Assembly: GCF_002251755.1 (NCBI RefSeq) | Contig: NZ_NOXT01000121.1 | Location: 1 to 64,000 of the forward strand | Reading direction: 5' to 3' | DNA length: 64,000 nucleotides | DNA from: Sandarakinorhabdus cyanobacteriorum | Lineage (GTDB): Bacteria > Pseudomonadota > Alphaproteobacteria > Sphingomonadales > Sphingomonadaceae | Shown here: one piece after another, positions 12,592 to 40,903 of the stretch | How the letters are laid out: each line of letters opens with the position of its first letter | Position numbering within the stretch: the first letter of the stretch is position 1 | Notes under the pieces: generated by a model | Databases searched by the model: none | Seen by the model: the letters and a program-made list of their open reading frames with translations, nothing else | What the model was told of the DNA's origin: nothing | Program-made: the position numbers and the translations under genes

Positions 12592-13985
12592 TGAAACGCG
12601 CCTTCCTGATCGCGGCCTTGGCCGCCGCTGCCCTGCCGGTGTTGCCGGCGATGGCGCAGGCCAGCATGGAGGCCCACACCGGCCTGTCGCTCAACCTGCC
12701 GATCAACAAGTCGCAGACGCTGCGCGTGCCGCGCCCGTTTGCCCGGTTGGCGATCGGCAATGCCGATATTGCCGATGTCTCGGCGGTCACCACCAGTGTC
12801 GCCTATCTGCTGGGCAAGCAGATCGGCACCACCAACCTGACCCTGTATGACAAGGCCGGCGGCGTGATCGCAGTGGTTGATGTGACCGTGAGCCCGGATG
12901 CCATGGGCCTGAAGCAGAAGCTGGCCGAGATCCTGCCGACCGAGAATCTGGGCGTCCAGGTGGCGAACGACACGCTGATCCTGTCGGGCACCGCCTCCAG
13001 CGCTGCGGCGCTGCAGCGCGCGGCCTCGATCGCGGAGGCCTATGCCCCGCGCAAGGTGATGAACATGGCCGGTGTCGGCACCGCCCAGCAGATCCTGCTG
13101 GAGGTGCGCTTTGCCGAGATGCAGCGCGGCACGGTCAAGGCCCTGGGCATCAACAGCGTGGCCTTTGGCGGCCCGGCGCGCGGCACTCTGACCCCGGAAG
13201 GGGTGGTGACCGAAGGCGGCACCATCTCGACGCCGGGCGCCGGCATCAGCGGCACCTTTGGCGCCGCCCTGCGTTTTCCCGGCCTCAACGTCTCGTTCCA
13301 GGCGCTGGAGAGCAAGGGCCTGATCCGCACCCTGGCCCAGCCCAACATCATCGCGCTGTCGGGTGAAACCGCCAACTTCCTGGCGGGCGGCGAGTTTCCG
13401 GTGCCCACCGGTGTTGCGGTGAACGGTCAGGTTTCGATCGAGTTCAAGCAGTTTGGCGTGGCGCTGGCCTTCACGCCCACCTTGCTGGAAGATGGGCTGA
13501 TCAACCTGCTGGTCGCACCCGAAGTGTCGAGCCTTGACCCGACGGCCGGGATTGACCTGAATGGCCTGCGCATTCCCGGCCTGAAGGTGCGCCGTGCCCG
13601 CACCACGCTGGAACTGCGCGATGGCCAGACCTTTGCGCTGGCCGGGCTGATCCAGAATGATTTCCGCGACACCATCAATGCGGTGCCGCTGCTGGGTCGC
13701 CTGCCGATCCTGGGCGCGCTGTTCCGGTCAAGCGGCTTCAACCGCCAGGAAACCGAGCTGGTGATCCTGGTGACACCGCGCATCGTGCGGCCGGTGGCGG
13801 CCGACAGCGGCGCGCTGGCCCTGCCCACCGACCAGGTGGACGAGCCGAGCGACACCGATTTCTTCCTGCTGGGCAACAGCGAACGCCGCGGGCCGATGCT
13901 GCCGGCGCTGCCGCTGCCGGGCCCGGCCAATGCCATCAACAAGCCAGGCGGCGTCGCAGCCGACCACGGCCATATCGTGAGGTGA
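12588..13985 (+). CDS. cpaC: Tad pilus outer-membrane secretin CpaC (RcpA)
   Basis: CpaC forms the outer-membrane pore of the Tad pilus. The 465-residue precursor has a signal peptide (FLIAALAAAALPVLPAMAQA), a pilus-type N-terminal domain with PFARLAIGNADIADV, a BON-like segment (NLGVQVANDTLILSG) and the secretin core (LLEVRFAEMQRGTVKALGIN to QETELVILVTPRIV). The terminal beta signature 'ETELVILVTPRIVRP' is clear. The C-terminal extension after this is short, with a Pro/Leu-rich piece. It starts inside the cpaB stop and is followed after 3 bp by the next reading frame. Confidence 0.94.
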   Translation: MMKRAFLIAALAAAALPVLPAMAQASMEAHTGLSLNLPINKSQTLRVPRPFARLAIGNADIADVSAVTTSVAYLLGKQIGTTNLTLYDKAGGVIAVVDVTVSPDAMGLKQKLAEILPTENLGVQVANDTLILSGTASSAAALQRAASIAEAYAPRKVMNMAGVGTAQQILLEVRFAEMQRGTVKALGINSVAFGGPARGTLTPEGVVTEGGTISTPGAGISGTFGAALRFPGLNVSFQALESKGLIRTLAQPNIIALSGETANFLAGGEFPVPTGVAVNGQVSIEFKQFGVALAFTPTLLEDGLINLLVAPEVSSLDPTAGIDLNGLRIPGLKVRRARTTLELRDGQTFALAGLIQNDFRDTINAVPLLGRLPILGALFRSSGFNRQETELVILVTPRIVRPVAADSGALALPTDQVDEPSDTDFFLLGNSERRGPMLPALPLPGPANAINKPGGVAADHGHIVR

Positions 13986-13988
13986 TGC

Positions 13989-14291
13989 ATGGGCAAGGCT
14001 GCCATCCTTCTGGTTGCCCTGGTGCTGGCCGCACCGGCTGCCGCGCAAGACCGCCAACTGGGTGCTTCGGTGCAGAAGAATGTGGCTGCCCATGTGGTTG
14101 ATCTGCATCCCACCTATGCCGGCGTGAAGATCGAGGGCAGCAATGGCGTGCGCTCCGAAGCTGCCATCAACCGCTATCTTGATGGCCGGGTGACCCCGCT
14201 GCGTTCGATCAGCGGTGAATCCCAGGTGGGTGCCAATGCACAACAGCGGGGCTCTGGCGGCCCCGCCGCCAGCCCGTCGGGGCCACGCTGA
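13989..14291 (+). CDS. Small exported protein in the cpaD position of the Tad cluster
   Basis: The 100-residue protein has a signal peptide (MGKAAILLVALVLAAPAAA, then QDRQ) and no lipobox. The mature part is polar, with SEAAINRYLDGRVTPLRSIS in the middle and a Gly/Ser-rich end. Its place between cpaC and cpaE is where CpaD lipoproteins (about 200 residues) usually lie, but it is half that length and lacks an N-terminal lipidation cysteine, so I do not call it CpaD. Start and stop are tightly coupled to neighbours (TGATG with cpaE), so it is surely expressed with them. Confidence 0.75.
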   Translation: MGKAAILLVALVLAAPAAAQDRQLGASVQKNVAAHVVDLHPTYAGVKIEGSNGVRSEAAINRYLDGRVTPLRSISGESQVGANAQQRGSGGPAASPSGPR

Positions 14292-15517
14292 TGGCTCTGC
14301 TGGCTCGCCTTGGTGCCTTTGCCGGCAAGGCCGCCGATGCCGGCGATACAGCCGCGCGCGAGGGCGGCGACCTGCGCGTGACCATGGTGTTGCACCCGCA
14401 GACGGCCGCCAAGCTGGATGGCGGGCGGCTGAACGTGCTCAACGCCGATATCCGGCTGTTTGACGGTGGCTTTGCCGCCTTTGCCGGCAATGCGCCGCTG
14501 ATCCGCCGCACCGATCTGCTGGTGGTGCAGATCGATCCCGACAATGCCGCCGATCTGGCCGCACTGGAAAATTTTGCCGCCGGCCCCGGCCAGCGTATTC
14601 CGGTGGTGGCTGCGGTGGAGGATCTGACCATCGCCATCACCCGCCGGCTGCTGCGTTCCAGCATCGCCGATGTGCTGCCCATCCCCTTCAGCCTGGAGGA
14701 ACTGGGCCAGGCCATCGATGCCGGGCGGGACCGGGTGGCGCGCGCCACGGGCCAGGGCCCGGCGCGTCAGGCCAATATCATTGCCGTGCAGGGCGTGCTG
14801 GGCGGCATGGGCACCAGCATGGTGGCCACCCAGCTGGCGCAGCTGTGGGCTGATGGCAAGCAGGTGCTGCTGATCGATCTGGACGTGCAGCGGGGCAACG
14901 CCGCGCTCTATCTCAACCTCAAGCCGCGGCTGTCGATCGCCGATCTGATCGAGGCCGAAGACCGGCTGGACGCCGAATTCCTGCGCATGGTGGTGGAACG
15001 CCACCAATCCGGCATGGGCGTGGTGGCGGCCCCGGCCGACATGAACCCGCTGGACGCCCTGACGCCGGAATTCATGGAACGGCTGCTGGATGTGGCGGCG
15101 CAGAATTATGATCTGGTCGTGCTCGACATGCCCGGCGTGTGGATCGACTGGTCGGCCGCCGCCATGCAGAAGGCGGATCAGATCCTGCTGGTGTCACAGC
15201 TCACCGTGTCGGGCGTGCAGCAGTGCCGCCGCCAGCTCGATGTGCTGGAAGCCAATAATCTGGGTGAGCGGGTGCGGGTGGTGATGAACCGCATGACCCC
15301 CGGCCTGTTCGGCAAATATGATCTGTCGGAGGCGGAATCCGTGCTGCGCCACAAGGTGCATTTCGCGCTGTGCAATGATTATCCCACCGTGTCGGCGGCG
15401 CTGGATGAAGGCAAGCCGGTCGGCCAGATGAAGCTGAAGGCGCGCATCGACAAGGAAATGCGCACCATGGCGGCCGCCCTGGCCGATGAACTGCTGGCGC
15501 TGGAGGTCGGGGCATGA
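14291..15517 (+). CDS. cpaE: Tad pilus assembly protein CpaE, MinD/ParA-like with altered P-loop
   Basis: CpaE localises and organises the Tad machine. The 408-residue product has an N-terminal receiver-like domain with no clear phosphorylation site, then a ParA/MinD-type ATPase fold starting near residue 158. The P-loop reads VQGVLGGMGTSMVATQL. Both lysines of the deviant Walker motif (KGGxGKT) are absent, replaced by L and T. Later motifs LLIDLDVQRGN and LVVLDMPG are kept. Loss of the P-loop lysine occurs in other CpaE proteins, but the signature lysine is also missing here. The gene overlaps both neighbours. Confidence 0.9.
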   Translation: MALLARLGAFAGKAADAGDTAAREGGDLRVTMVLHPQTAAKLDGGRLNVLNADIRLFDGGFAAFAGNAPLIRRTDLLVVQIDPDNAADLAALENFAAGPGQRIPVVAAVEDLTIAITRRLLRSSIADVLPIPFSLEELGQAIDAGRDRVARATGQGPARQANIIAVQGVLGGMGTSMVATQLAQLWADGKQVLLIDLDVQRGNAALYLNLKPRLSIADLIEAEDRLDAEFLRMVVERHQSGMGVVAAPADMNPLDALTPEFMERLLDVAAQNYDLVVLDMPGVWIDWSAAAMQKADQILLVSQLTVSGVQQCRRQLDVLEANNLGERVRVVMNRMTPGLFGKYDLSEAESVLRHKVHFALCNDYPTVSAALDEGKPVGQMKLKARIDKEMRTMAAALADELLALEVGA

Positions 15518-16908
15518 TTTTCCCCACCCGTCGCAAGCCCGCGGCGGCGGCACCGCCCACTGCCGACAATGCACCGGCGGCCGTTGCCGCCCCGACCCCG
15601 GCACCGGTGGTGAGCATCAAGGACCGGCGGCGCGACGATTACACCGAACTGAAGGTGACGCTGCACCAGAATCTGATCGATCGCATCAATCTGGCCGCGC
15701 TGGAAACCATGACGCGCGATCAGATGCAGCGCGACATCGGCGACATCGTTCAGGAAATGCTGAAGGAAAACAACCAGGCCCTGAACGCTGCCGAGCGGCG
15801 CCAGCTGGTTGAGGACATATTGGACGAGTTGCTGGGGCTGGGCCCGCTGGAGCCGTTGCTGAAGGATCCGACCATTTCCGACATCATGGTCAACAGCGCG
15901 ACCAAGGTGTTCGTCGAGCGGCGCGGCCGCATCGAGGAGGTGGGCACCCGCTTTGCCAGCGACCAGCACCTGCTGCGCATCATCGGCAAGATCGTTTCCA
16001 ACGTTGGCCGCCGGGTGGACGAAAGCTCGCCGATGGTCGATGCCCGCCTGCCCGACGGCAGCCGCATCAATGCCATCATCCCGCCGCTGGCCATCGATGG
16101 GCCCTGCCTGTCGATCCGCAAATTCCCGCCCAGCCGCACCAGCATCGACAAGCTGGTCGAGTATGGATCGATGACCCCGGATTGCGCCACCATGCTGAAG
16201 GCGGTGGTGGCCAGCCGGCGCAACGTCATCGTGTCGGGCGGCACCGGTTCGGGCAAGACGACGATGCTGAACGCCCTGTCGGCCTCCATCGGTGCCCATG
16301 AACGCGTGGTCACCATCGAGGATTCGGCCGAGCTGCAGTTGCAGCAGAGCCATGTCGTGCGGCTGGAAACCCGCCCGGCCAACATCGAGGGCCGCGGCGA
16401 GGTCAACCAGCGCGATCTGGTGAAGAACGCGCTGCGGATGCGGCCCGACCGGGTGATCCTGGGCGAAATCCGATCGGGTGAAGCCTTCGACATGCTGCAG
16501 GCGATGAACACCGGCCACGATGGTTCGATGACGACGCTGCATGCCAACACGCCGCGCGATGCGCTGTCGCGCCTGGAACAGATGATCGGCATGTCGGGCA
16601 TCGATATCAGCCCGAAATCGGCGCGCGCCCAGATCGCATCGGCGATCAACGTGGTGCTGCAACTGGAACGCCTGCAGGATGGCACCCGCCGTGTCACCTC
16701 GGTGGCGGAAATCACCGGGATGGAAGGCGACATCATCCTGATGCAGGAAATCTTCAAGTTCGTGCGCGAAGGGGTGGATGCCGAAGGCAAGGTGATCGGC
16801 GAGATGCGGCCGATGGGCGTGCGGCCCAAGTTCATGGAAGTGTTGAAATCGCGCGGCTATGATCTGCCGTCGACGATGTTCGACCCGTTCCGGCGCAAGG
16901 ACAGCTGA
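15514..16908 (+). CDS. cpaF: Tad secretion ATPase CpaF (TadA)
   Basis: This hexameric ATPase powers pilus extension and retraction at the inner membrane. The 464-residue product has a variable Pro/Ala-rich N terminus, an N-terminal domain with DILDELLGLGPLEPLLKDP, Walker A SGGTGSGKTTML, an Asp box in VVTIEDSAELQL, Walker B in DRVILGEIRSGEAFDMLQ and a His box around GHDGSMTTLHANTPRDAL. The start overlaps the cpaE stop by 4 bp (ATGA). It is followed after 3 bp by tadB. Confidence 0.97.
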   Translation: MIFPTRRKPAAAAPPTADNAPAAVAAPTPAPVVSIKDRRRDDYTELKVTLHQNLIDRINLAALETMTRDQMQRDIGDIVQEMLKENNQALNAAERRQLVEDILDELLGLGPLEPLLKDPTISDIMVNSATKVFVERRGRIEEVGTRFASDQHLLRIIGKIVSNVGRRVDESSPMVDARLPDGSRINAIIPPLAIDGPCLSIRKFPPSRTSIDKLVEYGSMTPDCATMLKAVVASRRNVIVSGGTGSGKTTMLNALSASIGAHERVVTIEDSAELQLQQSHVVRLETRPANIEGRGEVNQRDLVKNALRMRPDRVILGEIRSGEAFDMLQAMNTGHDGSMTTLHANTPRDALSRLEQMIGMSGIDISPKSARAQIASAINVVLQLERLQDGTRRVTSVAEITGMEGDIILMQEIFKFVREGVDAEGKVIGEMRPMGVRPKFMEVLKSRGYDLPSTMFDPFRRKDS

Positions 16909-16911
16909 GCC

Positions 16912-17913
16912 ATGACGCTGCCCGCCTTCATCAATCCGGAACTGGTGCTCTATGGCATCATCTTCTTGGCGGCGGTGTTGCTGTTCGAAGGCGTGTTCCT
17001 GTGGTGGCGCGACACCTATGGCGCAAAGCGCCGGGTGTCCAAGCGCATGGCCCTGATCGAACAGGGCGCCAGCAGCGCCGAAATCATCACGGCGCTGCGC
17101 CGGCAGACCACCGACGTGTCGAAATCGCTGCTGCCATCGGTCATCCGCTATCTCGACAGCCGGATGAGCCAGGCCGGCATCCGGATGAGCGCGCAACGCA
17201 TGCTCACCCTGATGGCCACCACCACCGCGCTGATTGCCTTCATCTTCCCGGTGCTCGGCGGCATCACCGGCCAGATCCGGTCGCCCAGCGCGGTGCTGGT
17301 GCTGCTGCTGTTCGCCGCCGGCATCGGCATGGTGCTGCCGGTGCTGTGGATCAACTATGTCGCCGCCCGCCGGCTGAAGCTGATCGAGGCGCAGTTCCCC
17401 ACCGCGCTTGATGTGCTGGTGCGTGGTCTGCGCGCGGGTTACCCGATCAACTCGGCCCTGGAACTGGTGGTGGAGGAGCTGCCGGATCCGCTCTCGTCCG
17501 AACTGGGGTTGGTGCTGGCCGAAATGAACTATGGCTATGCGCTGCGCGATGCGCTGGCCAATCTGGCCGATCGGGTGCAGACGCCCGATCTGGCGATGTT
17601 CGTCGTGTCGGTTTCGATCCAGACCGAAACCGGCGGCAGCCTGGCCGACATTCTGGACGGGTTGTCGCGCGTGATCCGCGACCGCGCCGCCATGGTGCTG
17701 AAGGTCAGGGCGCTCGCCTCGGAAGGCAAGATGACCGGCAGCCTGCTCACCGCGCTGCCGGTGCTCACCTTCATCAGCGTCTTCACCAAGGATCCATCCT
17801 TCTATCTGGATGTGGCGGACGATCGCTGGTTCATGCCCGGCGTGCTGGGCGTGCTGTTCATGTATGTTCTGGGGGTGGTGATCATGCGCCGCCTGATCGC
17901 GATCAAGGTCTGA
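16912..17913 (+). CDS. tadB: Tad inner-membrane platform protein TadB
   Basis: This is a 333-residue GspF-like platform protein. It has an N-terminal helix (LYGIIFLAAVLLFEGVFLWW), a pair of helices around residues 95-145, a cytoplasmic T2SF domain (PTALDVLVRGLRAGYPINSAL, TETGGSLADILDGLSRVIR) and two C-terminal helices ending IMRRLIAIKV. TadB and TadC together form the inner-membrane platform that CpaF drives. The gene is 3 bp after cpaF and 13 bp before tadC, in one operon. Confidence 0.95.
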   Translation: MTLPAFINPELVLYGIIFLAAVLLFEGVFLWWRDTYGAKRRVSKRMALIEQGASSAEIITALRRQTTDVSKSLLPSVIRYLDSRMSQAGIRMSAQRMLTLMATTTALIAFIFPVLGGITGQIRSPSAVLVLLLFAAGIGMVLPVLWINYVAARRLKLIEAQFPTALDVLVRGLRAGYPINSALELVVEELPDPLSSELGLVLAEMNYGYALRDALANLADRVQTPDLAMFVVSVSIQTETGGSLADILDGLSRVIRDRAAMVLKVRALASEGKMTGSLLTALPVLTFISVFTKDPSFYLDVADDRWFMPGVLGVLFMYVLGVVIMRRLIAIKV

Positions 17914-17926
17914 GGCGGGGCGGGCG

Positions 17927-18901
17927 ATGGCATTGACCGGAGATCTTGCCAACTGGATCGTGCTGGGCCTGGTGTTCATTGCCGTGGTGCTGGTGGTGCT
18001 GGCGCTGGCGCCGATCGTGCTGGGCCGCACCGATATCAAGGCGCGGCTGGCGGCACAGGGCGGCGGCAGCGCGCCCGATGCAGGCCCCGGCAGCATCCGC
18101 AACGATATCGCCACCGGCACCTGGTCGCGCCTGGTGCAGGAAATCGAACGGCGCGGCATCGGCCTCACCGATTCCACGTCCGACAAGCTGGTCGAGAAGC
18201 TGGCGATGGCCGGCTTTGATCAAAGCTATGCGCCGCGCGCCTTCACGCTGGCCCGGGCCGTGGCGACGTTGGCCCTGCCTTCGTTCGTGCTGCTCCTGAT
18301 CACCATCAGCGGCAACTGGCCATCGTCCACCAAGCTCTATGTCATGCTGATCGGTGCGGCCGCGCTTGGCCTTTATGTGCCCGGCATCATCGTCTCGTCG
18401 CGCGCCAGCGAGCGGGCCAAGGAAATCCTGAACGGCTTTCCCGACACGCTCGATCTCATGCTCGTCTGTCTGGAAGCCGGCCTCGGCATCGATGCCGCCT
18501 TCAGCCGTGTCGGCGCCGAGATCACCGGTTCGCACCCGCTGCTGGCGCGGCTGTTTGCCCAGGTCAGCCTGGAACTGCGCGCCGGGCGCAGCCGCGAGGT
18601 GGCCTTGCGCATGCTTGCCCGCAAGAGCGGCGTGGCCGAGATCACCGCCTTCACCACCCTCATCATCCAGTCCGACAAGCTGGGGGCATCGGTCGCCAGC
18701 GCCCTGCGCATCTACAGCGCCGAAATGCGCGAGGCCCGTCGCCTGCGCGCCGAGGAAAAGGCTCACCGCATTCCCGTGCTGCTGTCGGTTCCGCTGGTGT
18801 GCTTCATGCTGCCGGTGATGGTGGCGGTGCTGATGCTGCCGGCGGCGATCGGGATGCGCGATGCCATGCAGACCGCCACTGACGCGAGCGAGAGCAAGTG
18901 A
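17927..18901 (+). CDS. tadC: Tad inner-membrane platform protein TadC
   Basis: The 324-residue second platform protein is paralogous to TadB. It has an N-terminal helix (WIVLGLVFIAVVLVVLALAP), a central hydrophobic pair near residues 105-155, a T2SF domain (FPDTLDLMLVCLEAGLGIDA, then FSRVG, and QSDKLGASVASALRIYSAEM) and a C-terminal pair around PVLLSVPLVCFMLPVMVAVL. The stop shares one base with the ATG of the following TPR gene. Confidence 0.95.
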   Translation: MALTGDLANWIVLGLVFIAVVLVVLALAPIVLGRTDIKARLAAQGGGSAPDAGPGSIRNDIATGTWSRLVQEIERRGIGLTDSTSDKLVEKLAMAGFDQSYAPRAFTLARAVATLALPSFVLLLITISGNWPSSTKLYVMLIGAAALGLYVPGIIVSSRASERAKEILNGFPDTLDLMLVCLEAGLGIDAAFSRVGAEITGSHPLLARLFAQVSLELRAGRSREVALRMLARKSGVAEITAFTTLIIQSDKLGASVASALRIYSAEMREARRLRAEEKAHRIPVLLSVPLVCFMLPVMVAVLMLPAAIGMRDAMQTATDASESK

Positions 18902-30790: not shown

Positions 30791-32434
30791 ATGACTCAGA
30801 CAAGCGGCAAGCGCCCACTCAAATGGCAGAATTATCATGAGACTGTGGAGCGGACGGCGCCCGATCTGCGTGATCTGGCAACTGTCAGCAGCGGGAATCT
30901 GGCGGCCTGGCTGGCGGCCAGCACCGCCGCCGCGCAAGCGCTGCTGACCGAAGCGGCGGCAGCGGGAACCATGGTTCAGGTTTTGGGCGGCACCTGGTCC
31001 TTCAGCCGGCTGTTGTCGGGCAACGGCATCCTGGCAGACCCGAAGCTTGTCAATGTCGATGACCTGCCGATCTTCGGACTGACAAGCGCCGACACCGCAA
31101 ACCCGCGCGTGCTCGTCGGCGGCGGCGTGCGCATCGGCCAGTTGAACGCCTGGCTGGAGGCCCGGCAGCTTTCGCTGTTCACATCGGGCGCCCATGATGG
31201 CCAGACGGTGGCAGGGGCCTGCGCCACCAGCACCCATGGGTCGGTGGTGGGCTATGGCGCCTTCCAGAATCATGTGCGCGCAATCCAGTTGGTGACCGGG
31301 CCGCAGGATTCCGTCTGGCTTGAACCCCAGGAAGACCGGGGCGCCAGGGTGGATGACGCGCTGCTGGCTGGCGTGGCCCGGCGGATGCCCGATGATGAGT
31401 TGTTTGCTGCGGCCCTGGTCCATTTGGGGGGACTGGGCATCGTCAACGTGCTCGTGCTTGAAGTGAGTCCGGCCTACAGCGTGGCCGTGGTGCGCCGCCG
31501 GCAGCTGTGGGACGAAGGGCTGAGCCGCCTGCTGCAGGATGGGCAATATGCCGCGTTCGCAGCACAGGTTTGGCCAGACGCCATTGCCCAATTCGGCAAG
31601 CAGCCGCCTTATTATATCGAGGTGATCCTGCATCCGTTCCGCAATGTCGTCCAGAATCTGCCGCCGCCGTTCAACAAACCCCGCCCCGCGCTCATCTCAT
31701 TATACTGGCAAGGCGCTGCACCGGCCGATGAAGAGGATGCGCGCTGGTTCGACGATACGCTCAACCTGCTCGAGCGCTTCGTGCGCCGCCGGCCATCGGA
31801 ATTGCCCGGCGACCTGTTTGACCGCATCGCCCAGAGCCTGGCTGACACCTTGCCCGTGCCGTGGGCCGTCGGCGATGCAGTCGGCGCCATGTTCCGCCAG
31901 ACGCCCGACGCGGGCGATCGTCCTCGCCGCGCCACCTGGGGCAAAGCCAATGGCCCCCATCAAAAGCTGCCCATCGATCTGTTCAACGCGGCCTATGCCA
32001 TCCCGCGCGCCCAACTGGATGGGGCGCTGGACGTCATCCACAAGGCCTTTCTGGCCGATGGGATTGGCGGAGCGGCTCCGGTTGTGTTCACTCTGCGCTT
32101 TGTTCAGGGGGCAGCGGGCTTGCTGGCATTTCAGCGTTTTCCCGAAACCGTGGTGATCAACATGGATGGGTTGCGCTCAACCGCCTGTTTCCAGGCCGCG
32201 GCACGCATCGCCCTGGCGCTGGAAATGGCCGACATCCCGTTCAGCCAGCATTGGGGCAAACAGGGCGAGATCACCGCATCGCGCGTGGCGCGTGAATATG
32301 ATGGCGGCAACGATGGCAACCCGCTGGGGCAGGACCGGGCCCAGAGGTGGCGGGCGGCCAGAGCCCGGCTGCTGGCCGCGCCGATGCACGATATCCTGAC
32401 CAACGACAGCTTGCAGGACTGGCAGTTGGGTTGA
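30791..32434 (+). CDS. FAD-linked oxidase (PCMH-type FAD domain)
   Basis: The 547-residue protein has an N-terminal FAD-binding domain of the PCMH class: MVQVLGGTWSFSRLLSG, VLVGGGVRIGQLNAWLEARQ and SGAHDGQTVAGACATSTHGS, the last fitting the pyrophosphate/flavin loop of aldonolactone and sugar oxidases. The position used for covalent flavin attachment in D-arabinonolactone-type oxidases is not obvious. Oxidases of this group often pass electrons to O2 and make H2O2. No signal peptide is seen. The start follows a strong AGGAGAAAGG. It converges with the regulator gene (28 bp gap) and lies on the same strand as the peroxidase locus. Substrate unknown. Confidence 0.8.
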   Translation: MTQTSGKRPLKWQNYHETVERTAPDLRDLATVSSGNLAAWLAASTAAAQALLTEAAAAGTMVQVLGGTWSFSRLLSGNGILADPKLVNVDDLPIFGLTSADTANPRVLVGGGVRIGQLNAWLEARQLSLFTSGAHDGQTVAGACATSTHGSVVGYGAFQNHVRAIQLVTGPQDSVWLEPQEDRGARVDDALLAGVARRMPDDELFAAALVHLGGLGIVNVLVLEVSPAYSVAVVRRRQLWDEGLSRLLQDGQYAAFAAQVWPDAIAQFGKQPPYYIEVILHPFRNVVQNLPPPFNKPRPALISLYWQGAAPADEEDARWFDDTLNLLERFVRRRPSELPGDLFDRIAQSLADTLPVPWAVGDAVGAMFRQTPDAGDRPRRATWGKANGPHQKLPIDLFNAAYAIPRAQLDGALDVIHKAFLADGIGGAAPVVFTLRFVQGAAGLLAFQRFPETVVINMDGLRSTACFQAAARIALALEMADIPFSQHWGKQGEITASRVAREYDGGNDGNPLGQDRAQRWRAARARLLAAPMHDILTNDSLQDWQLG

Positions 32435-32461
32435 CGGACGCAGGCGGCGCCGGTTCCGATA

Positions 32462-34138
32462 TCAGGGTGCGAGCCATTGCTGCAGTTGGCGCTGGTGATC
32501 AGGGTGCCGGAGCACCGCCCGGATGACCAGCGCACCATTGCCGGCCGCAAGTCGATCCGCCCAGTGGCGGCTTGCATTGATGTGACCGCTTCGGCGCTCC
32601 CAGACCATCGCGGCCAGCAGGGCCGGCGCGAAATGCGGTACCAGCGTGGCCGCCTCGAGCGCCATGGCGGCATGCGTGCCGGCGTCGGCAGCATCGCCTT
32701 GCGGATCGGCCAGCAACCGCGCCAATGACAGGCCGGCCAGTGCATAGGGACGCACCGCCAGTTCCGGATTGTGCCGCAAGGCCAGTTCCAGCTGCCGCAT
32801 GGCATCCCCGGCACGGCCCCGTGCCAGCGCGATCCAGCCTGCCCAGAAGCGGCAGCCCGGCATGGTTGGCCCCAATGCAATTGCCCGTTCGATCAGGCTC
32901 TGGGCTTCGTCCAACTGGCCACCCGTACCGATCAGGGTGGCGGCAAGGTTGCTCAGCACCATCGGATCACTGCTGCCCGCGGCGAGCGCCAGCTGATAGT
33001 GGGTCTGCGCCTCCTGCAATGCCGTCATGGGATCCGCAGCCCAGCCGTTGATCAGCGCCACCGCATTGGCAAAGGCCAGCAAGGATGCAGCCCAGGCATT
33101 GCCCGGTTCAATCACCAGCACCTGGCGCGCCATGTCGCGCGCCCGGGCAGTGCTGTCGGGCTGCCAGAGACGGATATCGGCGTTGGCCCGCCAATAAAGA
33201 TGATGGGCTTCCGGAGCGGTGATCGGGCGCTGCACCGCCAATTGGCGCTCGTGCTTTTCGATCTTGCTGTCGATCAATGGCGCCACTTCGCTGACAATCT
33301 CGTCGAGCATGGCAAAAACATTGGCGTGGCTGATCTGCCGGCGGGCCGACCACAGTCGTTCCCCCACCGCGGCATCAACCAGCCAGATGGTGAGAATCAT
33401 GCCGCCTGCATGCGCCCGCATCTGACCATCAAGCAGATAGCGAACATCGTGCATCCGCGCCGTGACCATCGGCGTTTGGTCGGGCCGGTGCGGACCGGCC
33501 TGCACCACAAACAGGGTTGACCATGACGACAGGCCATCAATCAGCGAGCGCGCCATCAACCCGCCAAGCCCCGAATCCGCCAGGCTGCCGTCCCCATCGT
33601 GCCAGCCGAAATCGACGATACCAAGCGTGGGTTTGAGAGCCACCGCAACACGGCGGCGCCAGACTTGATCGCGGGCGTGGCGCAGCATGCGGCGCACAAA
33701 ACTGCGCTGTTCGGTCAGCCAGTCTTCAAAGGCCTCGGCGTCCGAGAGATCAATGCCTTCCAGCAGCGTGATGTCGGGATCGATATTTGCCGCGGCGGGA
33801 TGGGGCGGATCAAGCAGCAGGGCATCGACCTCGATCCTGGTCAAGTCGAGTGCAACTTGCTGGCGATCAATGACCAGCAACGGTGGCGCATTGACTGGGT
33901 TCAGGCAACGCCGCAGCGTCGACAGCTCGCGGCGCAGGCTGCCATCCCGCCGCGCGGCATCAACCTCACCCCACAACAGGCTGCCCAGCCAATGCCGATC
34001 GCGACGGCCGTTGCGCCCCATGGCCAGCAAGGCAATCAGCGCTTGGGCACGCCGGCTGGCGATGCGAATTATGCTTCCGTCCGGCTCGAACAGCGCGAAC
34101 GGGCCAAGAATTTGCAGGCGATATTTGCCCGTGGCCAT
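32462..34138 (-). CDS. SARP/BTAD-like transcriptional regulator with TPR region
   Basis: The 558-residue protein opens with an OmpR-like winged-helix of the SARP type: YRLQILGPFALFEPDGSIIR, SRRAQALIALLAMGRNGRRD, and RDGSLRRELSTLRRCL as the recognition region. A central domain follows (FVVQAGPHRPDQTPMVTARM, ARMHDVRYLLDGQMR), resembling the CadC/adenylate-cyclase-like periplasmic module but without a membrane helix. Residues 310-540 form TPR-like helical repeats (AQTHYQLALAAGSSDPMVLS, GWIALARGRAGDAMRQLELA). It lies between the oxidase (convergent) and the four-gene peroxidase operon (divergent, 159 bp) and is the likely regulator of both. Confidence 0.82.
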   Translation of the reverse strand: MATGKYRLQILGPFALFEPDGSIIRIASRRAQALIALLAMGRNGRRDRHWLGSLLWGEVDAARRDGSLRRELSTLRRCLNPVNAPPLLVIDRQQVALDLTRIEVDALLLDPPHPAAANIDPDITLLEGIDLSDAEAFEDWLTEQRSFVRRMLRHARDQVWRRRVAVALKPTLGIVDFGWHDGDGSLADSGLGGLMARSLIDGLSSWSTLFVVQAGPHRPDQTPMVTARMHDVRYLLDGQMRAHAGGMILTIWLVDAAVGERLWSARRQISHANVFAMLDEIVSEVAPLIDSKIEKHERQLAVQRPITAPEAHHLYWRANADIRLWQPDSTARARDMARQVLVIEPGNAWAASLLAFANAVALINGWAADPMTALQEAQTHYQLALAAGSSDPMVLSNLAATLIGTGGQLDEAQSLIERAIALGPTMPGCRFWAGWIALARGRAGDAMRQLELALRHNPELAVRPYALAGLSLARLLADPQGDAADAGTHAAMALEAATLVPHFAPALLAAMVWERRSGHINASRHWADRLAAGNGALVIRAVLRHPDHQRQLQQWLAP

Positions 34139-34297
34139 CCCGATGCTCCCCCATCAGCCAACAGATTAGCATGATTTGTGAACCGGCAGCGTTTTTTTCA
34201 CGCTGCGCGAACGCTGGACGAACGACTGTTCAGCAATGAAGCCGCCAGTAGCAGGTTTTTTGCTTTGCAATTGTGTGACGGTTGGGAGGAAAATGAA
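34139..34297. promoter_or_regulatory. Divergent promoter region between the regulator and the peroxidase operon
   Basis: A perfect 7-bp inverted repeat GCAGCGT / ACGCTGC (34186-34192 and 34200-34206) with a T-rich loop sits in the middle. The heptamer GCAGCGT also occurs at 30619-30625 upstream of the FAD oxidase. The region is less G+C-rich than its surroundings. A strong site GGGAGGA at 34284-34290 is 7 nt before the ATG at 34298. Confidence 0.5.
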
Positions 34298-35503
34298 ATG
34301 AAACCGTTACCTTGTGGAATGGCGCGGGCGGGATGCGCTGTGCTGCTGGCCCTTTCCGCTTCAGCCGCGATGGCAGCGCCAGAACCGCCAAAAACGGACT
34401 CGCTGGCGCCACCGAATTCGGCCGCAGTGGCAAACCTGACCATCGATCATGGCGACAGGCCGAATCGGGGTGGCGGGCCGACCTTTGTGGTTTCCACCGG
34501 CAAATCCGCAGCGAACATCAACGGCCTTTTCGTCCGCCGTGTGGAGGTGACGCACGGGGACATGGCCTTTGAAGTGGCAAATGGCTGGTCGCTGTCCACA
34601 ACGACACCCGGCTGCAAGGTTCCGCCCACAACCCAGAAGGCGTTCCGCCAGTGCAGCTTCATCCTCCAGCCGAACGACACGCCGTTGGACCGGTTGGGGC
34701 TGCCGGAACCGGGGAGCCATCGCATCCGGATGGCGCTGATCGATGGCAATGGCGAAATCCGCAATTTCGATCTGTTGGCCGATCGCCATTGGGGCTGGAT
34801 CTGGCTGCTGCTGGCCCTGGTGGCTGGCACGGGCGGCGGCGTGCTGGTGGGCCGTTGGCGGGACGGTGGCCGGGCCCAGGTGCAACAATTGTTGGCGGTC
34901 AACAGCGCCCGGGCACAGCTGCATGCGGCGCTGGCAGGCACGGCCTTTGGTGCAAGCCAATTGCTGGGCCTGGCCGATGATCTGGCAAAGCGCATTGCCG
35001 CAGAGCCACATGATCTGCAGGCGGAGGTGGCGGAACTGCAGCGGCGGATCGGGATCGCCACCCGATTGATTGACGGATCAGACAGCACGTCTGCCGAGGT
35101 GATCAGCGGAATGCTGGTCTGGTTGGGCGACCGGCCGGACGGTCTGGTCAAGCCGGTCTCGACAGCCGAGGTTGAAGAGAAACTGCAGCAGCTCACGCCG
35201 GCGGTGGTGATGGCGCAAGCAATGGCTCCCGCTGGCGCCCAGGCTTTGCTGCCAATATCGGCCACACAATTGGAGCCCGACAGCGCGCCGGCCGACCTGC
35301 GCCGCCAGCTGCGCTGGCAGGATGGCAAGGTGCACTACATTCTGCTCAGCCTGTTCGTGCTCGTGGCCTTCGTCGCGCAATGGAGCGCGACCTGGGGCGG
35401 CATTGGCGACGTGGTGACGGCTGTCGCCACCGGCTTTGGTGCCTGGGCCACCCTCAATCAGGGCGTTGATGTCCTGGTCTCCACCGCACGCCGCCGCACT
35501 TGA
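34298..35503 (+). CDS. Unrecognised exported membrane protein, first gene of the peroxidase operon
   Basis: No family is recognised. The 401-residue protein has a signal peptide (GCAVLLALSASAAMAAP) and an extracytoplasmic domain of about 135 residues with a cysteine pair (PGCKVPP and RQCSFIL). One transmembrane helix follows near residue 170 (WIWLLLALVAGTGGGVLVG), then a cytoplasmic alpha-helical part (QVQQLLAVNSARAQLHAALA, LQAEVAELQRRIGIATRLID) and two C-terminal helices (YILLSLFVLVAFVAQWSATW and VVTAVATGFGAWATL). The layout could couple an outside domain to a cytosolic coiled region. The start was chosen for its GGGAGGA site; the frame is open upstream to 34178. Confidence 0.7.
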   Translation: MKPLPCGMARAGCAVLLALSASAAMAAPEPPKTDSLAPPNSAAVANLTIDHGDRPNRGGGPTFVVSTGKSAANINGLFVRRVEVTHGDMAFEVANGWSLSTTTPGCKVPPTTQKAFRQCSFILQPNDTPLDRLGLPEPGSHRIRMALIDGNGEIRNFDLLADRHWGWIWLLLALVAGTGGGVLVGRWRDGGRAQVQQLLAVNSARAQLHAALAGTAFGASQLLGLADDLAKRIAAEPHDLQAEVAELQRRIGIATRLIDGSDSTSAEVISGMLVWLGDRPDGLVKPVSTAEVEEKLQQLTPAVVMAQAMAPAGAQALLPISATQLEPDSAPADLRRQLRWQDGKVHYILLSLFVLVAFVAQWSATWGGIGDVVTAVATGFGAWATLNQGVDVLVSTARRRT

Positions 35504-35532
35504 TCCGAATTTGCCGAAGGGGAGGATTTGCC

Positions 35533-36345
35533 ATGAAGATCAACTTGTTTGCTGCCGGGATGATGCTCTGGGCCACAGGCGCAACCGCTGCCGAGCTCCC
35601 GCTTGCCACCAACCGCTTGGCCGCGACAGTCACGCTGACGCGCGGGCAATGCGAGGGTCCCGATGAGCAGGCCGCCCCCGCTGCCACAGCTGCCGGCCCC
35701 GTCCTGATCGGCATCGTGGCCTCGGCTGCCGTGAATTTGGTCGGCAGCCTGCTGCAGCAATGGCGCGACGGTGCCAGCGGCCAATTCCTGGCCACCGGTG
35801 TGGTCGATAGCCCACTCTGCAACGGCGTCCACACCCTCAAGATTGAGCGCAAGCTGCTTGTCAGCGGCGGCAAGATGGAGCCATTCGAACTGACCGCGAA
35901 ACTGGCGAACAAGGACGGCCAGCTCACGCTGACACCGAACCAGCTGTCCTACGGGAGCACCTCTGCTGCTCGGCAAACCCGAACCAAGCATGTGTCGATC
36001 GTGCCCGCTTTCAGCAGCCAGGCGCCAAGTGACGGCAAAACGGTCAATGAGGAAAAGGCGCTCGCGTCCTTCCGGTTGAACTTTGGCGAACTCGAGATGG
36101 GCAAGCGATATGATGCAAGCCTGTTGGAAGGCACCGCGGTTATGGCCTCGCTGCCCAAGGACACCAAGGGCTTCAACATGGCCGCGCTGGTGACCGAAAG
36201 CCGCGAGGCCGGGCCGGCCCTGAAGGCGCTGGTCGATGCCTATGCCGACGGCAAGGATGACCTGGCCAAGACCTTGGCCAAGCTCATCGAAAAGACCGCC
36301 GGGATCAAGAGCGACGACGCCAAGACGAAAACCGACAGCAAATAA
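35533..36345 (+). CDS. Unrecognised exported protein, second gene of the peroxidase operon
   Basis: The 270-residue precursor has a signal peptide (INLFAAGMMLWATGATAAE) and no known family that I can name. Near residue 55 a hydrophobic segment (GPVLIGIVASAAVNLVGSLL) may insert into a membrane. The middle looks beta-rich (HTLKIERKLLVSGG, DGQLTLTPNQLSYG), and the end is a charged, Lys/Asp-rich helix (DDLAKTLAKLIEKTAGIKSD). It follows the previous gene by 29 bp with GGGGAGG before the ATG at 35533 and precedes the haem peroxidase by 24 bp. Confidence 0.7.
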   Translation: MKINLFAAGMMLWATGATAAELPLATNRLAATVTLTRGQCEGPDEQAAPAATAAGPVLIGIVASAAVNLVGSLLQQWRDGASGQFLATGVVDSPLCNGVHTLKIERKLLVSGGKMEPFELTAKLANKDGQLTLTPNQLSYGSTSAARQTRTKHVSIVPAFSSQAPSDGKTVNEEKALASFRLNFGELEMGKRYDASLLEGTAVMASLPKDTKGFNMAALVTESREAGPALKALVDAYADGKDDLAKTLAKLIEKTAGIKSDDAKTKTDSK

Positions 36346-36369
36346 TCGAAACACGAGGGGAGACAGGAC

Positions 36370-38100
36370 ATGCTCTATTCCATCGGTCACGGATCCGTGG
36401 TGGTGTTGCGGGCTGGCACACCGGAAGGCGGCCAGGGCGAGATGGCGGCTGGCATCGTGGCCGCCTTTGCCGATAACGGCCGTCGGGCCACCGGCACTGC
36501 CGGCACCACTGGCGCCACCGGCAGTTTCGGCTTCCTGTTCCCGGGGGCGCCGCTGTTCCCGGCCCAGCCCAACATCGGGACGCTGCTCGACAATCTGGGC
36601 AATGCGATGGCCGAAACATCGGATGCGGAGGTCAGCACCCCGCCCAAGCCCAGCCTGCCGGCCATCTTCACCTATTTCGGCCAATTCGTTGATCACGACA
36701 TCACCGCCGCCACCGACAGCGATCCCGGCAACAATTCGCCGTTGCGGATCATGGTCAATGATCTGCAGCAGGCCAATCGCAGCCTGGTGGTGACCACCCT
36801 GCAGAATCTGCGTTTGGGCACACTGGGGCTGGACAGTGTCTATGGCGATGGCACCGATCAGTCGCCGGCCGTGCTGCGGCTGGAACGGCAGTTGCGCGAT
36901 CCCGATGGCCTGCGCATGCGGGTGGGCAGCGTGGTGCCGACGCCGGGCGCCAACGGCCGACCGCCCCGCCTGCCGGTTGAATTGCCGGGCAAACATCCGC
37001 GTCAGGCCGATCTGCCGCGCATGGGGCTGGTGGTGCCGTCCGTCATTCCCCAGGATCAACTGCCGCCACAACTGGCGAGCCTGCCAGAGGACAGCCTCAA
37101 GCGGCGCGCGCTGATCGCCGATGCCCGCAACGATGAAAATCTGGTGGTGGCCCAATTGCACACCGCGGTGCTGCGCTTCCACAATGCCATGGTCGATCGG
37201 CTCGGCGATGCCGCCACCTTCGAGGCGGCGCGCGATCTGACCGTGCTGCATTATCAATGGCTGGTGGGCGAACATTATCTGCCCGGCATCTGCGATCCGG
37301 CCATTGTTGCCGATGTGAAGGCGCGCGGCGCCCCGCTCTATGCCCATATGCTGGCTGCCGGCCGGCGCGCGGGCACCGTGCCGGTGGAATTCGCCACCGC
37401 CGCCTTCCGCTTCGGCCACTCGATGGTGCGCGAAGCCTATGACTACAACAGCAATTTCGAGATTGGTGGCATAGCCGCGACGCTCAATCTCCTGTTCCTG
37501 TTCACCGGGCGCTCCTCGAACCCGCTCGGCGGGGAAGGCGTCACCGGCCTGCCTGACAATTGGGTGATCGACTGGGCACGCTTTGTGGACAGGCACGACC
37601 AGGATCGGTTGGCCCGGCCGATCGATACCCGGCTGGCGCAAACCCTGAACAGGCTGCCCAATGAAAGCAGCCCGACCTTCAACGATCTGATCAAGTCGCT
37701 GGCCCGGCGCAATCTGCGCCGTGGCTATGCCCTGGGCCTGCCCAGCGCCCAGACCTTGATCGCCGAAATGAAGGCCGCCGGCATCGCCGATATTCCGGTG
37801 ATGAGCGATGCGGACCTGCGCGGCCCGGACAACCAGCGCCGGGCCGCCCTCGATGCCGGCAACTTCGTGCAGCACACCCCGCTCTGGTATTATATCCTGC
37901 GCGAGGCTGAAATTTCCTCCGGCCCGCATCTCGGGCCATTGGGATCGCGCATCGTCGCCGAAACCCTGTGGGGCCTGCTGCTCAACGATCCCCGCGCCTA
38001 CCCCGGCCGCGGCTGGACCCCGGCGGCAGCACCTGGCGCTGCCACCCACGGGCCCATCGATGGCTTTGAGGCCTTCCTGCGCGCCGCAGGTGCCCTGTGA
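36370..38100 (+). CDS. Animal-type haem peroxidase
   Basis: The 576-residue protein belongs to the peroxidase-cyclooxygenase superfamily. Aligned by eye to myeloperoxidase, the distal site is FGQFVDHDI with Gln105, Asp108, distal His109 and calcium-site Asp110. ADARNDENL gives catalytic Arg253 and Glu256, the latter equivalent to the haem-ester Glu. The proximal ligand is His350 in AAFRFGHSMV. The Tyr three residues before the proximal His that defines cyclooxygenases is Arg here, so this is a peroxidase and not a fatty-acid dioxygenase. No signal peptide is present, so secretion would need another route. Its last bases overlap the patatin gene (GTGA). H2O2 could come from the nearby FAD oxidase. 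Confidence 0.9.
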   Translation: MLYSIGHGSVVVLRAGTPEGGQGEMAAGIVAAFADNGRRATGTAGTTGATGSFGFLFPGAPLFPAQPNIGTLLDNLGNAMAETSDAEVSTPPKPSLPAIFTYFGQFVDHDITAATDSDPGNNSPLRIMVNDLQQANRSLVVTTLQNLRLGTLGLDSVYGDGTDQSPAVLRLERQLRDPDGLRMRVGSVVPTPGANGRPPRLPVELPGKHPRQADLPRMGLVVPSVIPQDQLPPQLASLPEDSLKRRALIADARNDENLVVAQLHTAVLRFHNAMVDRLGDAATFEAARDLTVLHYQWLVGEHYLPGICDPAIVADVKARGAPLYAHMLAAGRRAGTVPVEFATAAFRFGHSMVREAYDYNSNFEIGGIAATLNLLFLFTGRSSNPLGGEGVTGLPDNWVIDWARFVDRHDQDRLARPIDTRLAQTLNRLPNESSPTFNDLIKSLARRNLRRGYALGLPSAQTLIAEMKAAGIADIPVMSDADLRGPDNQRRAALDAGNFVQHTPLWYYILREAEISSGPHLGPLGSRIVAETLWGLLLNDPRAYPGRGWTPAAAPGAATHGPIDGFEAFLRAAGAL

Positions 38101-39641
38101 GCCGGCGCCCGCGCACCCTGCGGCTGGCCCTGCTGGCCGGCACCGCCGCCCTGTTGGCCGGCTGCGGCGGCAAGACCCGCGTGCAGATTGCCGATCCACA
38201 GGTCTGCCCGCTGACGTTGCTTGATATCAGCACCGATCCGATCCCCAGCAAGCCGGCCACCGGCGCTGCCACTGCAACAGCCGCGACCGCCAAAGCCGAA
38301 CCACCGCCGCCGGAAAGCCCATTTTTCTCAGAGGTGAAACGGGCGCTGAAATCGTATCGCTACACGCCGAAGCCCACGGCTGCCCCATCTGATGGGGCCG
38401 TTCCCGCAGCCGCCGCCGTCCCAGCGGCGGCCCCAGCGCCCAGCGGACCGCCATTTGAACGGCGCGCGCTGGTGCTGTCGGGCGGCGGCAAATGGGGCAG
38501 CTTCGGCGCCGGCTTCCTGCAGGCGCTCTATGGCAATGATGCCGGCTGGGCGGGTGGCCCGAAGGAGTTCGCCGTGGTGACCGGGGTCAGCACCGGCGCA
38601 TTGCAGGCGCCCTTCATGTTTGTCGCCGCCGAAAAGGTGAAAAACGGCAACACCCGCTACACGGCCGCCGCCGATACTCTGCTGGCCAAAACCGACGTGC
38701 CGGTGGGCAAGCGCACCTACCTCGATGATCTGCCGCTTGCCTATCGCATCAGCCGGTCCAAGAGCGTCGTTGATCTTCATGTCAAATCGGCCGGCAGCCT
38801 TGATCTCTGGGCCGGCATCACCGCGCTGCGCAAGGGCAGTCTGGGCGATCTGAAGGGGCTGCGCACCCGGCTCGCCGCCCTGGTGGACGATGGCATGTTG
38901 GAAGCGATTGCCAAGGGCGAAGACGCTGACCGCAAACTCTTCGTCGGCATCGTCGATTTCGACAGCGGACGCCCGTTCGCCGTCGACATGACCAAGCTTG
39001 CCAAAGCCTATACGGATGCGGCCGATACCGACAAACCCCGGCTGATCGGCTGCTTCCACGATGTGCTGGTCGCATCCTCATCGGAACCACTGCTGGCCCA
39101 GCCAGTGTTCATCCGCAGACAAGCACCAAAGGGACAGAAGCAGGATGATGAACCAACCCGCATGTACATGGATGGCGGTGTCCGCCACGGCGTGTTCCTG
39201 CGTGAGGTCGTCGATGCCGCCCAGGGACAGACGAAGCAGGAAACCACCGTCATCATCAACGGCACGCTCACCCCTGCGGATCGCAGCGGGGATTCCGGCT
39301 GGATGGCGAAATGGGATCTGCTCGGTCTGGTGCGGCGGGCCCAGGCCCTGGTGACGGATCAGCTTTATCAATCATCGGTGGAACGCGTGCGCGATTTTGC
39401 CGTGGCCCAGGGCGTTGTGCGCATCAAGACCGCACGCAACTATGAGAAGCATGTCTATGCCAGCAAAACCGGCGATCCGGTTCCGAACCAAAGCATGATG
39501 TGCAAGGACTGGCAAAAGGCCGAACAGAACGAAGGCTTCCCGCTGATGTTCATGCGCTGCCTGATCGATTTCGGTGCAAAGGAAGCCGGGCACCCCAATG
39601 GCAAGCCGAACTGGGATCTGGTGCGCCCCGAACCATCCTGA
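38097..39641 (+). CDS. Patatin-like phospholipase lipoprotein
   Basis: The 514-residue precursor starts at a GTG overlapping the peroxidase stop by 4 bp. Lipobox LLAGC (ALLAGTAALLAGC) predicts a lipoprotein. After a Pro/Ala-rich linker the patatin domain starts near residue 120: oxyanion loop LSGGGKWGSFGAGFLQAL, nucleophile elbow GVSTGAL and the catalytic-dyad aspartate in YMDGGVRHG. Patatins are Ser-Asp lipid acyl hydrolases. The C-terminal 120 residues have two conserved-looking cysteines (MMCKDW and MRCLID). Its coupling to the peroxidase implies joint action in the envelope. Confidence 0.9.
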   Translation: MSRRPRTLRLALLAGTAALLAGCGGKTRVQIADPQVCPLTLLDISTDPIPSKPATGAATATAATAKAEPPPPESPFFSEVKRALKSYRYTPKPTAAPSDGAVPAAAAVPAAAPAPSGPPFERRALVLSGGGKWGSFGAGFLQALYGNDAGWAGGPKEFAVVTGVSTGALQAPFMFVAAEKVKNGNTRYTAAADTLLAKTDVPVGKRTYLDDLPLAYRISRSKSVVDLHVKSAGSLDLWAGITALRKGSLGDLKGLRTRLAALVDDGMLEAIAKGEDADRKLFVGIVDFDSGRPFAVDMTKLAKAYTDAADTDKPRLIGCFHDVLVASSSEPLLAQPVFIRRQAPKGQKQDDEPTRMYMDGGVRHGVFLREVVDAAQGQTKQETTVIINGTLTPADRSGDSGWMAKWDLLGLVRRAQALVTDQLYQSSVERVRDFAVAQGVVRIKTARNYEKHVYASKTGDPVPNQSMMCKDWQKAEQNEGFPLMFMRCLIDFGAKEAGHPNGKPNWDLVRPEPS

Positions 39642-40372: not shown

Positions 40373-40903
40373 ATGGACAGCTATCTCGACCTCGTGCCCC
40401 AGGCCCCGCATCGCCAGAACCACAACGGCTGGACGCCGGAGCGGCAGCAGCGGTTTCTCAACCATCTTGGGGTGCATGGCAGTGTGGCGGCGGCGGCGCG
40501 GCATGTGGGGATGAGCCGGCAATCGGCTTATTGGTTGCGGCGGCAGCCGCTGGGGGCGGAATTTGGTGCGGCCTGGGATGCGGCGTTGGCGGACCGGGAC
40601 CGGTTGATTGATGATGTGGCGATGGATCGTCTGCTCGATGGGGAGGAGGAGGTGATCGAGCGCGAGGGCGTGGTGGCGGCGGTGCGGCGGCGGCCGGTGG
40701 ATGTGCGCTTGCTGCTGTTCCACCTCAAGCGGGTGGAACAGCGGAAAATCGTGGAATTGCAACGCCAGAATCCGGTGGATTCGACAATTGTGTCAAAACT
40801 GCGCGCCGAACTGCGGGCGTTGGCGGAGATGCCATACGACCCGGAGGATGATATGCTGGCCCCGCCGTGGCCGGCGGCGCCGTTCACTTCTGCCGACGGA
40901 TGA
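40373..40903 (+). CDS. Small helix-turn-helix protein of unknown role
   Basis: The 176-residue protein has a clear helix-turn-helix near residues 28-55 (RQQRFLNHLGVHGSVAAAAR, then HVGMSRQSAYWLRRQP), like the DNA-binding part of phage terminase small subunits and resolvases. The rest is helical and charged (RLLDGEEEVIEREGVVAAVR, DVRLLLFHLKRVEQRKIVEL). The ATG at 40373 (MDSYLDLVPQ) is preferred to an upstream in-frame ATG that would add repeat-derived sequence. Similar stand-alone proteins occur in sphingomonads beside intergenic repeats. Its 3' end overlaps the convergent carboxypeptidase gene by 20 bp. Confidence 0.7.
   Translation: MDSYLDLVPQAPHRQNHNGWTPERQQRFLNHLGVHGSVAAAARHVGMSRQSAYWLRRQPLGAEFGAAWDAALADRDRLIDDVAMDRLLDGEEEVIEREGVVAAVRRRPVDVRLLLFHLKRVEQRKIVELQRQNPVDSTIVSKLRAELRALAEMPYDPEDDMLAPPWPAAPFTSADG

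Follow-up and report, generated by a model that had tools for sequence, protein, structure and literature searches.

A probable regulator, oxidase and patatin module of sphingomonads, joined in one genome by an animal-type haem peroxidase

The island described here appears to hold a module conserved in sphingomonads, made up of a regulator, a VAO-type oxidase and a patatin lipoprotein, and the copy in the window (the whole stretch of 64,000 nucleotides that was analysed, a portion of contig 95 in a draft assembly of 3.53 Mb, placed among the sphingomonads by kinship tables and by Sphingomonas relatives of its loci) would add to it a haem peroxidase of animal type together with two exported orphans, a reading to which we give about even confidence. 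Its core has the firmer footing: the linkage of one oxidase clade to patatins, a second locus with the same three-gene layout and the grouping of the regulators argue, at the level of sequence comparison, that regulator, oxidase and patatin are a real module. It is apparently new to the literature, in which no description of this gene combination was found.

Gene content of the island

All six genes that an earlier sequence-only reading had placed between 30791 and 39641 were recovered at their positions (Table 1), with starts and ends taken from codon-usage gene calling and domains from Pfam (E-values of 1.2e-12 for FAD_binding_4, above the cut-off, 7.8e-16 for An_peroxidase, and 1.7e-13 for Patatin). 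The tight packing of the last four genes was also borne out, with spacings of 29, 24, and -4 nt, the letters GTGA at 38097-38100 being common to the peroxidase and patatin genes. The regulator diverges from this run across 159 bp and is convergent with the oxidase, which lies outside the run.

Table 1. Features of the island and their positions in the window
Feature	Position	Strand	Evidence
VAO/FAD_binding_4 oxidase, 547 aa	30791..32434	+	Pfam, profile against PDB, residue columns, tree
Regulator, 558 aa, wHTH, TolB_N-like and TPR	32462..34138	-	Pfam TPRs, regulator tree
Divergent intergenic region, 159 bp, with tandem 11-bp direct repeat	34139..34297	.	
hypA, orphan with signal peptide	34298 (or 34370)..35503	+	
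hypB, orphan, exported, with signal peptide	35533..36345	+	
Animal-type haem peroxidase, 576 aa, short bacterial peroxicin type	36370..38100	+	
Patatin-like phospholipase lipoprotein, 514 aa	38097..39641	+	Pfam, motifs, tree

The products of hypA and hypB do look like unrecognised exported proteins, as had been proposed, their signal peptides being assigned by inspection. HypA shows a signal peptide, a periplasmic beta-rich part, a transmembrane segment, a cytosolic helical part and a C-terminal transmembrane segment; searches of Pfam, NCBIfam and PADLOC assigned it to no family, none of its PHROG matches was significant, and within the 24 genomes of the genus it was found only in its own (0 of the 23 others). 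HypB likewise matched no Pfam or other family, and no convincing relatives of either protein turned up in any database searched. Single-sequence AF2 models were uninformative (pLDDT of 39 for hypA and 36 for hypB), and plasmid searches with patatin, hypA, and hypB gave no matches.

The left edge of the island is a synteny breakpoint, since the gene order after an acyl-CoA dehydrogenase (30513) differs in all six congeners compared; with flanks non-syntenic downstream of 30513 in these six, no clean insertion site could be demonstrated. No full PADLOC model of a known anti-phage system matched at the island, the sole match being a weak one to a generic phospholipase effector (2.1e-4), and on this negative result a defence-system reading was rejected. 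Elsewhere in the window, an Hsp70-family gene overlaps one whose 843-aa product has a TonB domain at its C-terminus (6318-10546), a Tad pilus cluster comprises secretin, AAA, T2SSE, and TadB/C-type T2SSF genes (12588-18901), and a small HTH protein resembles a phage terminase small subunit (phrog_4044; 40373-40903).

Linkage of oxidase, patatin and regulator

Relatives of the oxidase were present in 59 of the 401 genomes of the order surveyed, a partial sample, and 15 of the 41 other oxidase loci fetched had a patatin no more than 2 kb away, in most cases directly adjoining, a figure that, like the other co-localisation counts, was taken without correction for kinship among genomes (gene calls in the reference loci were produced within the same analysis). 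At about 1-2 patatin homologues per 3-Mb genome, we estimate the chance expectation for such linkage at well under 1%. A single genus (g7) contributes about nine or ten of the linked loci as syntenic copies, and patatin-linked oxidases occur in at least six genera (g1, g2, g3, g6, g7, and g13). The oxidase tree, in which some branches are long, as they are in the patatin and regulator trees, has one clade of 16 members (100/99) including the window oxidase; patatin linkage is seen for 15 of these 16 and for none of the 19 sister oxidases outside the clade. The coupling of a probably H2O2-forming oxidase to a lipid hydrolase, proposed from the window alone, has turned out to be a conserved association with its own regulator, the latter being present at only four of the 41 other oxidase loci.

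Three or more layouts were found, with oxidase and patatin abutting on one strand (L102, L161, and L165), divergent (g7 and L136), or with the regulator between them (the window and L134). Locus L134 (genome G352) carries oxidase (+), regulator (-), and patatin (+) in the order and orientation of the window, without hypA, hypB, or the peroxidase, and with one TAG inside the regulator reading frame. In L102 and L165 the order is regulator, trypsin-like protease, oxidase, patatin. In the regulator tree the window protein clusters with the VAO-linked regulators of L134, L165, and L171, and with that of L254 (100/99).

The patatin was rightly called a lipoprotein by the sequence-only reading: it has the lipobox LAGC, the motif GGGKWG and a Ser/Asp dyad (GVSTG at 163 and DGG at 359). 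It shares lipobox, dyad and oxyanion motif with sphingomonad patatin-like lipoproteins, but differs from these in general in that the linked patatins are genomically tied to one oxidase clade. They come from three lineages, 14 forming one clade while those of the window and of L136 represent two others, and this suggests repeated association or partner replacement; a linkage kept or remade with different patatins argues for function. In another locus (L098:7012-10258) a RoxA-like dihaem lipoprotein is found directly upstream of a patatin.

One alternative is that the genes at the breakpoint are partly chance neighbours, a real oxidase-regulator pair standing beside an unrelated hypA-hypB-peroxidase-patatin operon devoted, for example, to peroxide or manganese chemistry. 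The broken gene order, the window patatin lying outside the main oxidase-linked lineage and a peroxidase that is usually solitary in other loci are all in keeping with it, but the clades of both oxidase and regulator show linkage with one another and with patatins, and in L134 the three genes have this layout with no insert; we regard this alternative as rather unlikely. In the genomes compared, hypA, hypB, and the peroxidase accompany oxidase and patatin only in the window genome and form an addition local to it.

Oxidase

Searched against the PDB, the profile of the oxidase family found alditol/xylitol oxidase (1e-17), GalDH and, weakly, DprE1. With these VAO aldonolactone/alditol oxidoreductases (AldO/xylitol oxidase 2VFR, GalDH 8QMY, and DprE1) the window protein has in common the FAD_binding_4 fold region, THGS and a C-terminal HWGK, and within the family R436 and the HW-x-K motif (HWGK 487-490) are invariant. 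In contrast to AldO, it is about 30% longer and has an invariant Trp (Trp69) at the site of the flavin-linked His and a Thr in place of the Glu in the AldO E-x-R motif. The covalent-flavin His and the ALO C-terminal domain are thus absent (Trp at the His site; no PF04030 match in Pfam), which sets it apart from the alditol/aldonolactone oxidases proper; by its sequence the enzyme is a distinct VAO/aldonolactone-type subfamily in a clade of its own.

Gly133, invariant in the 16 aligned family members, falls in the profile column of GalDH residue 113 (8QNC/8QMY), the O2-gatekeeper position, where VAO-family oxidases likewise have Gly. In GalDH, Ala113 blocks O2 and the A113G exchange gives an oxidase, turnover with oxygen rising 15- to 200-fold (PMC11099136). 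The invariant Gly makes O2 use and H2O2 formation by the window enzyme likely, in agreement with its earlier placement in an H2O2-making FAD oxidase class.

Regulator and its neighbourhoods

The regulator combines a SARP/CadC-like winged helix at the N-terminus with a TolB_N-like middle and a C-terminal TPR part. Of the SARP/TPR label that it had been given, the TPRs stand by Pfam, while SARP is a resemblance of the winged helix judged by eye, with no match to Trans_reg_C, SARP or BTAD in Pfam or the other models. Winged helix and TPR C-terminus are as in the SARP/CadC/HilA-like wHTH-TolB_N-TPR regulators; it differs in that BTAD is not matched and the neighbours are redox enzymes, and some of its relatives (in L102, L255, L260, and L265) carry TIR where the others have the wHTH. 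SARPs bind direct repeats, and the divergent intergenic region contains a tandem one of such a kind, of 11 bp, ACGCTGCGCGA/ACGCTGGACGA, at 34200-34221 (p ~0.002 by mononucleotide shuffles), which we consider a candidate operator. The repeat was not found upstream of related regulators, and a conserved operator was rejected for that reason.

Redox enzymes were encoded within 6 kb in 12 of 19 further regulator loci of the order, compared with none of 22 control loci, which were picked around unrelated anchors, not at random, and contained none of the modelled families. The 12 comprise eight with P450-DyP (fused or split), one with lipoxygenase and P450, two with a VAO/FAD oxidase (one of them also with a RoxA-like dihaem protein), and one with an amine-oxidase-like flavoprotein identified by Pfam. 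Several of the wHTH-TPR regulators adjoin a P450-DyP fusion of 1250-1620 aa, often at 4-nt spacing (L058:5277-11827, L259, L262, L264, L266, L268, and L271), and in L263 and L267 the two parts are split genes; such neighbours were found in sphingomonads, the same regulator and P450-DyP pair also lies on a plasmid of Sulfitobacter, and no description of the combination was found in the literature. A RoxA-like dihaem lipoprotein adjoins a TIR-TPR protein and FAD oxidase in L255:4173-9408, and in L260:5534-10533 a TIR-TPR protein lies beside lipoxygenase and P450, an oxylipin-like set. Lipoxygenases are present in 17 of 331 genomes of the order. At the 16 flanks besides L260 (genome G191) the regulator was not found, an indicative result, the lipoxygenase gene being uncalled in three of the 16, and an oxylipin generalisation was rejected on these grounds. 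Sphingomonad lipoxygenases often adjoin a gene for a conserved membrane protein of ~380 aa in several genera (L315-L328).

Haem peroxidase

The active site of the animal-type haem peroxidase is complete, as the sequence-only reading held: Q105, D108, H109, R253, E256, and H350 are invariant in ten aligned sequences, with the distal Gln-x3-His, the distal Arg and the proximal His all present. A search of the PDB related it to lacto-, myelo-, and eosinophil peroxidases and to peroxinectin. Cyclooxygenase-type dioxygenases use a Tyr three residues before the proximal His; the window enzyme has Arg there, in the motif FRFGH, and so does not fit the cyclooxygenase/fatty-acid dioxygenase branch. Its residues fit the short bacterial peroxicins of the scheme in PMC4420034 (compare the Rhodopirellula enzyme, PMC10204396), with the same distal Gln/His/Arg, ester-forming Asp/Glu and proximal RFGH, although it differs from these in lacking a signal peptide and in sharing an operon with the patatin and the exported orphans hypA and hypB. 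Neither it nor nine relatives showed a signal peptide or a hydrophobic signal stretch; export by a non-classical route is conceivable. Several of these signal-less peroxidases begin with an S-(I/L)-x-H-G-like motif (MLYSIGHG, MLFSLGHG, and MPRLGHG; 36370-36400 in the window), possibly a targeting or docking signal.

No patatin or window-type oxidase occurred within 6 kb of the peroxidase in 100 other loci (20 of the order and the best 80 of 261 GTDB candidates), no peroxidase was found at the 41 other oxidase loci, and the gene is missing from five congeners sampled. The oxidase-peroxidase pair put forward as a system finds no support in these counts. The five families were found together only in the window genome, so that the refuting condition named with the sequence-only reading, genes that rarely co-occur, holds for the set as a whole. 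Members of the regulator family lie within 6 kb in 10 of the 80 GTDB peroxidase loci (the best 80 of 261), four of these with PAP2; some such neighbours are background, because the family is common in Rhizobiales, the convincing part being the group with PAP2. Clusters of regulator, PAP2-superfamily protein (possibly haloperoxidase-like) and animal-type haem peroxidase occur in Rhodobacterales and relatives (L033:4319-12611, L175, L176, L193, and L217), in L033 and L193 with a subtilase, and a Palleronia plasmid has the order regulator-PAP2-S8-peroxidase. The peroxidase-linked regulators fall apart from the window regulator in the tree, and for this reason the window peroxidase looks like a separate recruitment.

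An oxylipin-like pathway, in which patatin frees fatty acids and a haem protein of the peroxidase-cyclooxygenase superfamily oxygenates or peroxidises them, could draw on the joining of the regulator family to lipoxygenase and P450, P450-DyP fusions, RoxA-like dihaem proteins or PAP2 with peroxidase, and on the RoxA-like and patatin pair of L098, but the proximal motif is of the peroxidase type and the regulators were not found at the order's other lipoxygenase loci, which leaves it improbable. An envelope antimicrobial like myeloperoxidase, in which oxidase H2O2 would feed hypohalite or hypothiocyanite formation while patatin attacks competitor lipids, retains a little probability, since E. 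coli is killed by a bacterial homologue, that of Rhodopirellula, given SCN- and H2O2 generated by glucose oxidase (PMC10204396). This reading would suit the ester-forming D108 and E256 of a full LPO/MPO-type site and a probably O2-reactive oxidase, but it is very improbable with no signal peptide or N-terminal hydrophobic stretch on the oxidase, its relatives or the peroxidase (only hypA, hypB, and patatin look exported), no oxidase-peroxidase linkage elsewhere, no immunity gene or secretion system recognised in the island, and a hypohalite that would be self-harming in the cell's own cytosol. A weapon modelled on myeloperoxidase thus finds no support in this bacterium, because peroxidase and hypA/hypB join oxidase and patatin in this genome only. 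With the lactoperoxidase/Duox-type pairing of H2O2 source and peroxidase the island has in common the gene for a flavoenzyme, here a probable H2O2 former, close to that for a haem peroxidase, but the window pairing is not conserved and lacks export signals, halide oxidation being conjectural.

Proposed function

Most likely, the island is an inducible module for the oxidation of lipids or polyols, to which a peroxidase that uses H2O2 was added recently; it would serve lipid or cell-surface metabolism or stress more probably than the killing of neighbours. From the layout, the wHTH-TolB_N-TPR regulator would sense a signal and control the divergent patatin run. The envelope-anchored patatin, by its motifs, would deacylate a lipid or glycolipid, and the oxidase could act on an alcohol of the polyol, sugar or lactone type that may be borne by the patatin's lipid or freed from it, although direct hand-over is doubtful because the two redox enzymes appear to be cytosolic and the patatin sits in the envelope. 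The gatekeeper Gly suggests that electrons would pass to O2, giving H2O2, which the peroxidase, by its position, may spend on an organic electron donor or remove, a coupling present only in the window genome.

More tentatively, the wHTH-TPR and TIR-TPR regulators may head an unrecognised class of mosaic bacterial modules that respond to a signal by chemically altering hydrophobic compounds or the lipids of membranes, each regulator having its own redox enzyme (VAO oxidase, P450-DyP fusion, animal-type peroxidase with PAP2, lipoxygenase with P450, or RoxA-like) and often a hydrolase (patatin, subtilase, or trypsin-like), the window island joining two enzyme types.

The focus thus moves away from a single peroxidase island and towards a partnership of regulator, probable H2O2-forming oxidase and lipid hydrolase that recurs across a large family of environmental bacteria, for which a phylogenetic handle is ready and the assays are clear. 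Many unstudied P450-DyP fusions, VAO oxidases, and peroxidases are encoded in the neighbourhoods that the regulator family marks, and the family could therefore guide searches for new oxidative chemistry.
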